From assembly GCF_001483745.1 (NCBI RefSeq), contig NZ_LQBL01000022.1, positions 62,001-126,000 of the forward strand: 64,000 bases of DNA. Direction: 5' to 3'. Shown one piece after another: positions 55,013 to 62,703 of this stretch. Made by a program: the position numbers and the translations under genes. How positions within the stretch are numbered: the stretch's first letter is position 1; each line of letters starts with the position of its first letter. Below the pieces are notes generated by a model. That model saw only the letters and a list, made by a program, of their open reading frames with translations. It was not told where the DNA came from and made no database searches. The DNA comes from Serinicoccus chungangensis. GTDB taxonomy: Bacteria; Actinomycetota; Actinomycetes; Actinomycetales; Dermatophilaceae.

Positions 55013-56731
55013 ATGCGCGGGCTCAACCTCCATCAGCCAGGGCTGAAGAACGACCCGGACTGGTTCCGCAAGGCGGTCTTCTACGAGGTCCTCGTCCGGG
55101 CCTTCGACGACTCCACGGGGTCCGGCTCGGGCGACTTCACCGGGCTGATGAACCGGCTGGACTACCTGCAGTGGCTCGGTGTCGACTGCCTGTGGATCCC
55201 GCCGTTCTACGCCTCCCCGCTGCGCGACGGCGGGTATGACGTCGCCGACTACACCGCGGTCCTGCCCGAGTTCGGCACCCTCCCGGACTTCCGCGAGCTC
55301 ATCAGCCAGGCGCACGCCCGCGGCATCCGCATCATCACCGACCTGGTGATGAACCACACGAGCGACCAGCACCCGTGGTTCCAGGCCAGCCGCTCGGACC
55401 CCGAGGGTCCCTACGGCGACTTCTACGTCTGGTCCGACACCGACGAGAAGTATGCCGACGCCCGGATCATCTTCGTCGACACCGAGACCTCCAACTGGAC
55501 CTTCGACCCGGTCCGGCGGCAGTTCTTCTGGCACCGCTTCTTCTCCCACCAGCCGGACCTCAACTTCGAGAACGAGGCCGTCGCCGAGGCGATGTTCGAC
55601 GTCGTCCGGTTCTGGCTGGACCTCGGCATCGACGGCTTCCGGCTGGACGCCGTGCCCTACCTCTTCGAGGAGGAGGGCACCAACTGCGAGAACCTCCCCC
55701 GCACCCACGAGTTCCTCGCCCGCCTGCGGGCCATGGTGGACGAGGAGTACCCGGGTCGGGTCCTGCTGGCCGAGGCCAACCAGATGCCGGCCGAGGTGGT
55801 CGACTACTACGGCACCCCCGAGGCGCCGGAGTGCCACATGTGCTTCCACTTCCCGGTCATGCCGAGGCTCTACTACGCGCTGCGCGAGGAGAAGGCGGAG
55901 CCCGTCGTCCGGGTCATGGAGGAGACGCCCCGCATCCCCGAGGGGACGCAGTGGGGCACCTTCCTGCGCAACCACGACGAGCTCACCCTGGAGATGGTCT
56001 CCGGGGAGGAGCGTTCGGCGATGTACGGCTGGTACGCCCCCGACCCGCGGATGCGCGCCAACATCGGCATCCGGCGTCGGCTGGCCCCGCTGCTCGACAA
56101 CTCCCGCGAGGAGATCGAGCTCATCAACGCGTTGCTGCTCTCGCTCCCGGGGTCGCCGTGCCTCTACTACGGCGACGAGATCGGCATGGGCGACAACATC
56201 TGGCTCAGCGACCGCGACGCCGTGCGCACCCCCATGCAGTGGACCCCGGACCGCAACGCCGGCTTCTCCACCGCAGACCCGGGCAAGCTGTACCTCCCCG
56301 TCATCAGCTCGCTGGTCTACCACCACAACAGCGTCAACGTGGAGGCCGAGATGGCCAGCGGCTCCTCGCTGCTGCACTGGACCCGCGGCATGCTGCAGGT
56401 GCGGGCCTCGCACGAGGTCTTCGGCACCGGTGAGTACCTCCCCTGCGTGGCCGACAACGACGCGGTGCTGGCCTTCGTCCGCGCCCTGCCGCCGGGCAGC
56501 GACGAGGAGGAGCGCGAGGGCTACCCCGCGGTGCTGTGCGTCAACAACCTGTCCTCCCGGCCGCAGGCCAGCACCATCACGCTGCCGGAGGCCCTGCACG
56601 GCGCCGACGTGCGGGACCTCTTCGGCGGGCACAACTTCCCCGACGTCGGTGCCGACGGCACCGTCACCCTCAGCATGGGCTCGCGCGGCTTCTACTGGCT
56701 GGGCCTGACCCCGAAGGAGGAGCAGCGATGA
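55013..56731 (+). CDS. treS: Trehalose synthase (maltose-trehalose isomerase)
   Basis: 572-residue GH13_16 enzyme interconverting trehalose and maltose, which feeds the GlgE pathway. [20 protein letters not shown] at the start, [14 protein letters not shown], Asp212 in [20 protein letters not shown], Glu254 in LLAEANQMP and [12 protein letters not shown] are diagnostic. ATG 55013 follows AGAAGGAG. Its stop overlaps the start of the fusion gene (ATGA), so TreS and maltokinase are translationally coupled; the two are known to form a complex in mycobacteria. Confidence 0.96.
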
Positions 56732-59700
56732 CCGACCTCACCCCGTCGTTCGAGGACTTCCTGCCAGCCTGGGTGGCCCGCCAGCGCTGGTTCCGTGGCA
56801 AGCAGGCCGCTGGCGCGGCGCCGCGGCTGCGCCGGGTCTCCGCCATCCGCTGGCAGGACCCCTACGGCGAGGTCGGGATCGAGGACCACATCGTCCTCGA
56901 CGAGAGCGCGTCGGACGAGCCGCCCACCGTCTACCAGGTCCCGCTCACCTACCGCGCCGAGGCGGTGCCCTTCCTGGAGCACGCGCTCGTGGCCACCGCG
57001 GAGCACCCCGAGCTGGGCACCCGCTACATCTACGACGCGACCCACGACCCGGTCTTCGCCGACGTGCTGCTCTCGGAGATGGCGTCCGACCACGAGGTCC
57101 CGGCCGCCCGCTCGCGCCGGGTGGCCCCGCAGGGGGAGCGCCCGGCGCTGGCCACCGCGCGGGTCCTGTCGGGTGAGCAGTCCAACACCTCGGTCATCGT
57201 GGAGACCCACCGCGGCGGACGGCCGCTCATCATCAAGCTCTTCCGCGTCCTGCACGAGGGGGAGAACCCGGACGTGTCGGTGCAGGCCGCGATCAGCCGC
57301 GGCGGCTCGCGTCAGGTGCCGGACCCGTTCGGCTACGTCGAGGGACGTTGGCCCGGCGCGGACGGCCGGGAGGTCCACGGCCACCTCGCCTTCGCGCAGG
57401 AGTTCCTCACCGGCACCGAGGACGCCTGGCGTCAGGCCCGGGTCGCCGCCGACGCCGACGACGACTTCAGCGGGCGCGCCCGCAGCCTGGGCGCGGCCAC
57501 CGCCGCCGTGCACGCCGCGCTGCGCGAGGCCTTCGGGGCCCGCCCGGCCGACGAGCGCCGCGCCGAGCTGCTGACCCAGATGCGCGACCGTGCCGAGCAG
57601 TCCTTCCGGGACGCGCCGCAGCTCGCCGAGCACCGCGACGCCGTGCTGGGCGTGTATGCCGCCCTGGAGTCCGCGGACCTGCCCGACCTGCAGCGGGTCC
57701 ACGGCGACTACCACCTGGGCCAGGTCCTCGACGCCCCGGACCGCGGCTGGGTGCTCCTGGACTTCGAGGGCGAGCCGCTGCGACCGCTGGCCGAGCGCAC
57801 CGAGCCCGACCTGGCCCTGCGCGACGTCGCCGGCATGCTCCGCTCCTTCGACTACGCCGCCGCCTCCTCGGCCGACGACCGCAGCCGGTGGGCCGACGCC
57901 GCCCGCGAGGCCTTCCTCGCGGGGTATGCCGAGCAGGGCGGGGTCGACCTCGGGGGCGAGGCCACGAAGGCCGTGCTGGCGGCGCTGGAGCTGGACAAGG
58001 CCCTCTACGAGGTGAGCTACGAGGCGCGCAACCGCCCGGACTGGCTGCCGATCCCGCTGGGGGCCGTGCACCGGCTCCTGGGCCAGGTCGCCGTCCCGGG
58101 CGGCGCCCCCGACGCCGGTCCTGCCGCGCCGCCGCGCGAGGCCCGCCACCGCGGCGCCACGCAGGAGCAGGACCAGGAGCAGGAGCACGGGGCGGGGTCC
58201 GCCGAGGAGGCGTTCCCCACCGAGGCCGGACGCCACCGCAGCGCCGCAGCAGTCCCGGCCCGCCCGGAGCAGGCAGGTGTCCCTGACGCACCGCAGGGCG
58301 CGCACAACCGCACGGAGGAGACGACCATGGGTGAGGACGACGTGCAGCAGGAGGTCCCGGCGCAGGAGCAGGCCGGCGAGCAGGCCGGTCCGGCACCGGT
58401 CGACGACGACTACGGCTCCTCGCTCATCGAGGTGGAGCGGCACGACGGACCGCTGTCCCACCCGCCGACCGGCGACCCGCGGGCCGCGAGCGGCAGCGCG
58501 GCGAGCGCCTCGGGCCGCCCGGGCGGGGCGAGCGGTGGCTACCCGCACGCCCCGGTCCCCCCGCCGGCGGACATGGTCGTCGGGACGGTGCCCCCCGGTC
58601 GACGGACCGGTGAGGACCTCGAGCTCGCCCCGCGCCCCCGGCCGGCCGCCAGCGGCTGGTCCGGGCAGCCGCAGGGCGACCCGGAGGTGCTGCGCGCCAC
58701 CGCGTGGGAGGACGCCAGCGGGGGGGTGGTCACGGCCCGCCCGACCGAGCCGCGCCGGTCGCTGAGCGAGCCGGTGGAGCCGGCCGCACCGCATACCCTC
58801 CCCCTGGACCTGGACGAGGCGACCGACGTCGTCGAGGGCCTGCACCGCAACCCGCACGCCCTCCTGGGCGCGCACGTCTTCGACGACCACGTCACCGTCC
58901 GGACCCTCCAGCCCGGGGCGCAGCTCGTCGAGATCGTGCTGGCCGACGGGGTCACGGTGCCGATGACGCACGAGACCGGCGGCATCTGGGTGGCGGTGCT
59001 GCCCACCGCGACCGTCCCGGCCTACCGGCTCAAGGTCGACACCGGGCGCGGTCAGCACCTCGTCGACGAGGCCTACCGGCACGGGCCCAGCCTGGGGCAG
59101 ACCGACCTGCACCTCATCGGGGAGGGCCGCCACGAGGAGCTGTGGCGGGCCCTGGGGTCCCGCGTCATGACCGTGCGCGACGAGCTCGGCGAGGTCACCG
59201 GCACCCGGTTCGCCGTCTGGGCCCCGCACGCGTCGGCCGTCCACGTCGTCGGCGACTTCAACGGCTGGAACGGCGCGACGCACGCGTTGCGTGCCCACGA
59301 CGAGGTCGGCGTCTGGGAGCTGTTCGTCCCCGGTGTTCGCGAGGGCGCCCACTACAAGTACGACATCACCGGCCCGGACGGCGTCCGCCGCGCCAAGGCC
59401 GACCCCATGGCGCGCGCCAGCGAGGTGCCCCCGTTCACCAACTCCGTGGTCACGGTCAGCACGCACCGCTGGGGCGACGCGGAGTGGATGGCGGCCCGCG
59501 CGGCCGGCGACATCCACCACGGGCCGATGAGCGTCTACGAGGTGCACCTCGGCAGCTGGCGCAAGGGGCTGGGCTACACCGAGATCGCCGACCAGCTCGT
59601 CCCCTACGTCGCGCGGATGGGCTTCACCCACGTCGAGCTCATGCCGGTCATGCACCACCCCTACGGCGGCTCGTGGGGCTACCACGTCACCGGCTACTAC

Positions 59701-62700: not shown

Positions 62701-62703
62701 TGA
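56728..62703 (+). CDS. Maltokinase-GlgB-phosphoglucomutase trifunctional fusion
   Basis: One uninterrupted frame of 1991 codons. Residues 1-455 are maltokinase: N-terminal cap, HGDYHLGQ (His325) and LLDFEGEP; it makes maltose 1-phosphate. Residues ~456-690 are a disordered Gln/Glu- then Pro/Ala-rich linker. Residues ~695-1415 are branching enzyme GlgB: two N-terminal beta domains, VVGDFNGWN, Asp1090 in RVDGVASML, Glu1143 in IAEESTSW and [12 protein letters not shown]. After an acidic ~25-residue linker, residues ~1440-1991 are alpha-D-glucose phosphomutase: [10 protein letters not shown], catalytic Ser1584 in [23 protein letters not shown] and RPSGTED. All catalytic sites are intact. GlgB could also be made from an internal ATG at 58327. 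No stop codon separates the parts. Confidence 0.9.
58314..58329 (+). promoter_or_regulatory. Internal ribosome binding site and ATG for GlgB within the fusion
   Basis: GGAGGAGA (58314-58321) is five bases before an in-frame ATG at 58327 (codon 534 of the fusion). It is stronger than most start signals in the window, so a second product consisting of GlgB plus phosphoglucomutase is plausible. Confidence 0.6.
61027..61044 (+). other. SD-like sequence followed by CAC at the expected pgm start
   Basis: GAGGAGGG (61027-61034) is seven bases before CAC (61042), which encodes the His immediately before [12 protein letters not shown]. In stand-alone phosphoglucomutases the protein starts at about this point. 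No ATG, GTG or TTG lies in frame here. Confidence 0.5.

Follow-up and report, generated by a model that had tools for sequence, protein, structure and literature searches.

The window analysed here is a stretch of 64,000 nucleotides from Serinicoccus chungangensis (contig NZ_LQBL01000022.1, positions 62,001 to 126,000), and it encodes a cluster of alpha-glucan enzymes in which maltokinase (Mak), the branching enzyme GlgB and an alpha-phosphoglucomutase (Pgm) share one reading frame. On translation this frame (window 56728-62703, forward strand) is open over 1991 codons without an internal stop, and the calculated mass of the encoded protein is 214.6 kDa. Pfam, NCBIfam and alignment to solved enzymes resolve it into Mak, a linker of 234 residues (linker 1), GlgB, a linker of 22 residues (linker 2) and alpha-Pgm (Table 1). 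The frame lies behind the genes placed as glgE and treS. The TGA stop of treS (56729-56731) overlaps the start of mak as ATGA, and the two genes being in different frames, TreS is not part of the fusion.

The Mak region carries the Mak_N_cap domain at residues 15-107 (86.6 bits, cut-off 22) and aligns over nearly its full length with the solved enzyme 4u94, with the motifs HGD and DFE intact; the roles of these motifs are dealt with in the accessible part of PMC4306142. Cap domain and motifs together identify the region as a maltokinase (EC 2.7.1.175). It scores 187.2 bits against TIGR02457 (TreS_Cterm, putative maltokinase), below the cut-off of 375.05; going by its name, this family models maltokinases that form the C-terminal part of TreS. 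The GlgB region comprises GlgB_N (697-783), CBM_48 (819-895) and an alpha-amylase domain with its C-terminal domain up to residue 1413, and is assigned to GlgB (GH13) by the equivalog TIGR01515 (878 bits, cut-off 464). All four PGM_PMM domains are found in the Pgm region (residues 1476-1978), which TIGR01132 identifies as alpha-phosphoglucomutase (887 bits, cut-off 778). Near-full-length alignments to 3k1d and 9vfy show the GlgB motifs GLRVD, AEE and SHDE and the Pgm motifs TPSHNPP, GEESAG and RPSGTED to be intact; the former we take to hold the catalytic Asp, Glu and Asp, and the latter presumably represent the phosphoserine, metal and sugar loops. An earlier note on this DNA had described three complete enzymes with intact motifs in one frame behind treS and glgE, and translation, domain searches and alignments bear this out. 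From its sequence the protein is confirmed as a genuine three-enzyme fusion, with the enzyme activities predicted.

Table 1. Features of the glucan gene cluster, with positions in the window.
Feature	Position	Strand	Basis
GlgX debranching enzyme, start of the cluster	50681..52900	+	TIGR02100, 835 bits (cut-off 640.9)
Frame placed as GlgE maltosyltransferase	52791..55001	+	gene context and name given in the earlier note; mechanical start
Frame placed as TreS trehalose synthase, 572 amino acids	55013..56731	+	name from the earlier note and context
Mak-GlgB-Pgm fusion	56728..62703	+	1991 codons; Pfam, NCBIfam, alignments
Maltokinase part, residues 1-456	56728..58095	+	Mak_N_cap; 4u94; dN/dS 0.249
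Linker 1, residues 457-690	58096..58797	+	fast-evolving, in frame; dN/dS 0.69 before residue 534, 0.34 from it
Internal Shine-Dalgarno GGAGGAG and ATG (58327)	58314..58329	+	predicted start of GlgB-Pgm form
Conserved linker 1 motif	58528..58575	+	pattern search in genus genomes
GlgB part, residues 691-1414	58798..60969	+	TIGR01515; 3k1d; dN/dS 0.100
Linker 2, residues 1415-1436, acidic, without in-frame start codon	60970..61035	+	dN/dS about 1.0
Phosphoglucomutase part, residues 1437-1991	61036..62700	+	TIGR01132; 9vfy; dN/dS 0.103

With a GC content of 74%, open frames come cheap. An antisense frame (window 56692-61296, reverse strand) is open for 1534 codons through the same stretch, probably as a by-product of GC-rich codon use. 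Openness alone is therefore weak evidence, and the case has been built on comparison with relatives. The nearest related contigs are titled as Serinicoccus and Ornithinimicrobium, and the genus sample comprises 31 genomes, the window's own and 30 others. In the 27 of these with both ends of linker 1 located, the coding frame of the linker is always free of stops, as against 1, 4, 16, 0 and 0 genomes for the other five frames. The length of the linker is a multiple of three in 26 of the 27 (the exception, G015, is frameshifted) and takes 26 distinct values among them. At the GlgB-Pgm junction the coding frame is open in all the 11 fused genomes described below, but so is one antisense frame, the others being open in 2, 7, 0 and 1 of the 11. 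This stretch is short and the control accordingly weak, so that the case for the second junction rests on the stop and start codons lost relative to all 20 unfused relatives and on the ratio of non-synonymous to synonymous substitution rates (dN/dS) in GlgB and Pgm. Over 15 pairs among six Serinicoccus genomes, dN/dS is 0.249 in Mak, 0.100 in GlgB and 0.103 in Pgm, while the two parts of linker 1 give 0.69 and 0.34 and linker 2 about 1.0. By this measure all three enzymes are under purifying selection, and the linkers are loose but kept in frame.

The two junctions differ in their distribution. Mak and GlgB are joined widely. In three of the 31 genus genomes the contig ends before Mak is reached; a single Mak-GlgB frame is present in 26 of the remaining 28, and frameshifts break it in the other two (G015 and G024). 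Beyond the genus the single frame is present in 20 of 20 further loci of the family and 18 of 20 of the order, counts that are not frequencies as these 40 loci were chosen for GlgB frames of more than 1200 codons. A GlgB match is found in 58 genomes of the family, among them that of the window, and by frame length alone 28 of these have such a GlgB frame. Judged from these loci the Mak-GlgB fusion is not new and is a frequent arrangement in the order. NCBIfam already has a model of 1224 positions named 1,4-alpha-glucan branching enzyme (NF011293/PRK14705), the first part of which appears to be Mak, to go by the model length and the two matched stretches. The window protein resembles it in having an N-terminal Mak followed by GlgB in one frame, and differs in its additional C-terminal Pgm; its whole-protein score of 1357.1 bits lies below the cut-off of 2376 and does not place it in the family.

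The joining of GlgB to Pgm appears, from the genomes compared, to be what is unusual. The two share a frame in 11 of the 31 genus genomes (G000, G027, G028, G003, G020, G019, G029, G018, G030, G017 and G010; G020 is Serinicoccus sediminis and G017 Ornithinimicrobium pekingense) and also in Ornithinimicrobium cerasi (L011), none of the 31 being matched by its probe. All 20 unfused genomes of the genus have a GlgB stop and an ATG or GTG start of Pgm preceded by a Shine-Dalgarno (SD) site with an energy of -6.1 to -12.0. Both the GlgB stop and the Pgm start are lost in the window: its Pgm opens with GRHPRAG, in place of the MAR(H/Q)(E/D)RAG of the closest unfused relatives. No in-frame start lies within 20 codons before the Pgm core in 10 of the 11 fused genomes; the nearest one in the window is 25 codons before it, within GlgB, with an SD energy of -3.4. 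Between GlgB and Pgm the 11 fused genomes have a spacer of 19-41 codons, whereas the GlgB tail is 97-170 residues long in the seven split genomes of the inner clade that were measured, which points to a deletion that took the tail, the stop and the start together. Four split genomes (G012, G015, G011 and G007; loci L061, L062, L063 and L065) have in common an acidic GlgB tail (GDGST.ELA..., HPFV.EGGQPIDH) that is missing from the fused genomes.

Outside the genus the arrangement is scarce in the genomes surveyed. A query spanning the GlgB-Pgm junction, run on 394 genomes of the class with up to five candidates scored in each, gave a match over its full length in the genome of the window alone and in none of the other 393; of these, 45 matched from query residue 149 or later, on the side of Pgm, and 348 lacked a match at 1e-60. 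Ten other loci of the family were fetched for Pgm, and the nine that hold mak, glgB and pgm have them all in this order in separate frames. In a survey of 149 genomes of the family, Pgm frames of at least 2000 codons occur in three genus members and in G118 (L087). The latter has its Pgm match in an open frame reported as 13,822 codons, and the stretch fetched around it holds no GlgB match. Long Pgm frames in six genomes outside the genus (G058, G096, G140, G098, G051 and G110) were rejected as chance overlaps with GlgB in another frame. The only other full match long enough for GlgB and Pgm, that of G165 (1348 codons), is not among these six.

The earlier note had asked for the same domain order in related genomes, and it is found in the further genus members and in O. 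cerasi; the stop codon or frameshift at a junction that would have told against the fusion is absent from the window, from ten further genus genomes and from O. cerasi. Its claim of novelty stands for the addition of Pgm and falls for the Mak-GlgB unit, which is frequent in the order. As it had supposed, no description of a Mak-GlgB-Pgm polypeptide was found in the open-access literature. Nor was one of Mak-GlgB, of which an earlier mention may exist; this negative covers the accessible parts of PMC11046441, PMC4306142, PMC6509496, PMC7935935, PMC9041414, PMC4981310 and PMC6339891.

Missed stops or frameshifts in sequencing or assembly could in principle produce a false long frame. Such noise is real, G024 being broken in all five genes and G015 in TreS and the Mak-GlgB region. 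The same in-frame junction is nevertheless present in 11 of 31 assemblies, four of them listed as single-contig (G003, G018, G019 and G029), with purifying selection on either side and a further fused case in O. cerasi, and we regard an artefact as extremely improbable. The frameshifts in all five operon genes of G024 (L080, Ornithinimicrobium sp. INDO-MA30-4) suggest that its assembly is of poor quality.

The history of the GlgB-Pgm join has been followed on a tree of GlgE, TreS, Mak and GlgB with 35 rows. The fused genomes are not one clade on it: the fused state needs four changes, and a topology that groups all 11 fused rows is rejected (p-AU 8e-48). The count is 3 on a tree of the GlgB end, 5 on one of the Pgm start and 4 on one of the remainder of Pgm, and a single fused clade is again rejected by each (p-AU 1e-8, 0.008 and 0.0015, respectively). 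These parsimony counts do not separate gain from loss. Repeated fusion within the genus is the simpler reading of the trees, because a fused gene could become split again only by acquiring a stop, a start and an SD site anew. One fusion spread among lineages by recombination seems unlikely to us. It would account for the junction letters HPRAGQ common to three fused lineages (Serinicoccus, G029 and G030) and for the different placing of some rows in trees of the Pgm N-terminus, but HPRAGQ is present in the unfused G004, G023 and G025 too, and a single clade is rejected by each of the two trees nearest the junction, that of the GlgB end and that of the Pgm start. A recombination of the Pgm N-terminus in G011, G012 and G015, hinted at by these trees, was dropped, as moving the three away from Serinicoccus was not significant (p-AU 0.23). 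The GlgB and Pgm of QEUR01000201.1 (L014 / L064), a contig titled Acidobacteria bacterium MAG (metagenome-assembled genome), fall inside the genus group, and this entry is probably mislabelled or contaminated.

A candidate internal start is located in linker 1. The ATG at 58327 is preceded by GGAGGAG and ranks fourth of 92 in-frame starts, and second of 27 ATGs, by SD energy; a comparison of five Serinicoccus genomes gave 51 conserved start columns, of which this one is again second, behind the true start. We infer that this site is the start of glgB itself, kept inside the fusion, and that a shorter GlgB-Pgm protein with a calculated mass of 156.8 kDa is likely made beside the 214.6 kDa form. 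GTG sites with SD energies of -8.7 to -11.6 are present in linker 1 of G011, G015, G018 and G029. Further along linker 1 there is a short motif, PHAPVxPP in its loose form, which is found in all 18 genomes whose linker 1 has at least 217 residues and in none of the nine with 107 or fewer; 16 of the 18 have the strict form ASGGxPHAPVxPP. Proteins of the inner clade carry it once or twice, in a linker that otherwise evolves fast. Its exact degenerate DNA pattern is found once in the genome, as is a reversed control pattern. A role of the motif as a docking site is speculation.

With moderate confidence we favour an account in which an old operon glgE-treS-mak-glgB-pgm became fused in two steps. 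The mak stop would have been lost and mak joined to glgB, with the ribosome site and start of glgB retained inside the frame at least in Serinicoccus; in some Serinicoccus and Ornithinimicrobium lineages a deletion would then have removed the glgB tail and its stop along with the pgm start codon. Two products are predicted, the full Mak-GlgB-Pgm and a GlgB-Pgm begun at 58327. One polypeptide would hold at the growing glucan the branching enzyme together with an enzyme of each maltose 1-phosphate route, Mak using maltose supplied by TreS and Pgm providing GlgC and GlgM with glucose 1-phosphate. The gain would lie in fixed co-expression and in co-localisation by way of flexible tethers, with no channel. 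The genome does encode GlgC (TIGR02091, 462 bits, over the cut-off) with a second GlgC-like protein below the cut-offs, GlgP, and an enzyme of the glgA_Coryne (GlgM) type (518 bits) whose gene adjoins that of GlgC in divergent orientation. Besides the fused Pgm, the genome has no match of this type at E <= 1e-50. The fused Pgm cannot be claimed as the sole enzyme with this activity, since GlmM, a PMM/PGM-like protein just below the cut-off and a third protein of the PGM_PMM family are also encoded.

The functions suggested in the earlier note fared unevenly. Its recycling of glucose phosphate by Pgm is one reading, and a role in supplying glucose 1-phosphate to GlgC and GlgM, the genes for which are present, suits Pgm no less well. 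The shorter forms that it foresaw have a counterpart in the predicted GlgB-Pgm product of the conserved SD site and ATG at 58327. Its channelling is unsupported: the linkers evolve fast, and the crystal structure of the related TreS:Pep2 complex appears, from the accessible part of the report, to rule channelling out (PMC6509496). Tethering is plausible and is preferred.

Several observations weigh against the two-step account and its tethering function. Close relatives do without the Pgm fusion, so that any benefit must be modest or conditional, and nothing in the fast linkers, with the dN/dS values given above, hints at a built interface. Good conservation of the internal start is confined to Serinicoccus. 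Its column is lost from a six-genome list because the strong site of G019 (-12.5) is not aligned with it; of 27 genomes, eight have linker sites that are all weak (rank 12 or lower), and in nine more with a better-ranked site homology is unproven. A short GlgB tail does not by itself amount to fusion, tails being 4-51 residues in nine split genomes of the outer clade. Fused genomes also hold possible starts for Pgm: a GTG with an SD energy of -10.0 lies eight codons ahead of the Pgm core in G010, which may still make Pgm alone; the other ten have their nearest upstream start 21-30 codons off (-2.0 to -6.3), and in G019, G029 and G018 there is a GTG 15-17 codons inside Pgm (-5.6 to -5.9).

Cleavage of the fusion product is possible, and if internal starts and proteolysis of the linkers released Mak, GlgB and Pgm, the frame could be open while the working enzymes are separate. 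The strong conserved site at 58327, the seemingly flexible, fast-evolving linkers and the candidate Pgm starts just listed are in keeping with this; the nearest start before Pgm in the window is weak and inside GlgB, so that release of Pgm would mostly need cleavage, and we think separate working enzymes rather improbable. A neutral fusion is also possible, in which stops are easily lost from a packed GC-rich operon and the result persists as it does little harm and brings no functional benefit. The old gene order seen in nine of the ten family loci, the rarity of stops in this composition, the nearly unconstrained linkers and the unfused close relatives all agree with it. It accounts less well for a join that appears at four places on the tree of one genus and in none of the 393 other class genomes sampled, for the loss of the Pgm start that is also required, and for a linker 1 motif found in every long-linker genome; we hold it to be doubtful, although to be taken seriously. 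A stronger claim lies at the other end, that the repeated fusion reflects selection for a tethered alpha-glucan workstation joining both maltose 1-phosphate routes to branching, made in two sizes through the internal start and with the PHAPVPPP motif docking a partner such as GlgE, and this we consider a quite unlikely extension of the two-step account.

Other fusions in glucan metabolism offer points of comparison. In TreS-Mak (TreS-Pep2) fusions and the TreS:Pep2 complex, as given in the accessible parts of PMC6509496, PMC7935935 and PMC11046441, Mak is likewise tied to a neighbouring step of the GlgE pathway, whereas in the window TreS has a gene of its own, overlapping that of the fusion, and the partners of Mak are the branching enzyme and Pgm. 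Only one of the fetched loci, L030 of a Nitriliruptoraceae MAG, seems to have TreS and Mak in one frame. Its TreS frame (1534-5220) also spans a weak Mak match (3904-5205), which makes a TreS-Mak fusion beside a separate GlgB probable in this distant relative. A triple TreS-Mak-GlgB fusion considered for four loci of the order was rejected, since in all Micrococcales loci in which TreS (55013-56728) could be located it lies off the Mak-GlgB frame. In Waddliaceae and Criblamydiaceae a GlgA-GlgB fusion similarly joins the branching enzyme to another glucan enzyme (PMC7935935, in part); the GlgB there is reported to be apparently non-functional, whereas that of the window is under strong purifying selection with its motifs kept. 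The Pgm part resembles bacterial alpha-PGM (TIGR01132) in scoring above the cut-off and differs in lacking the start codon of its unfused relatives and in being carried behind GlgB.

Among the neighbouring genes, GlgE has the same operon position in 28 of the 31 genus genomes (in pieces in G024), the other three being cut by contig ends. The frame placed as GlgE has no NCBIfam match, and its true start is probably further in than the listed one. A convergent open frame of 342 codons (window 62765-63793, reverse strand) directly follows the fusion and looks by eye thioredoxin-like with helical repeats. A second debranching enzyme of the GlgX type is encoded elsewhere in the genome (L141, 2070-4256, forward strand; 1007 bits). 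A promoter scan gave no sigma-70-type promoter and one terminator-like site, fewer than in shuffled sequences.

The GlgE pathway has been studied mainly in mycobacteria and streptomycetes, where the enzymes are separate. The close relatives compared here differ in the joining of GlgB to Pgm, with several changes in one genus, and they form a natural comparison that asks whether fusing neighbouring enzymes of an operon alters glucan structure or flux or stays neutral. A retained internal start would show how a fused gene still supplies one of its parts in excess.

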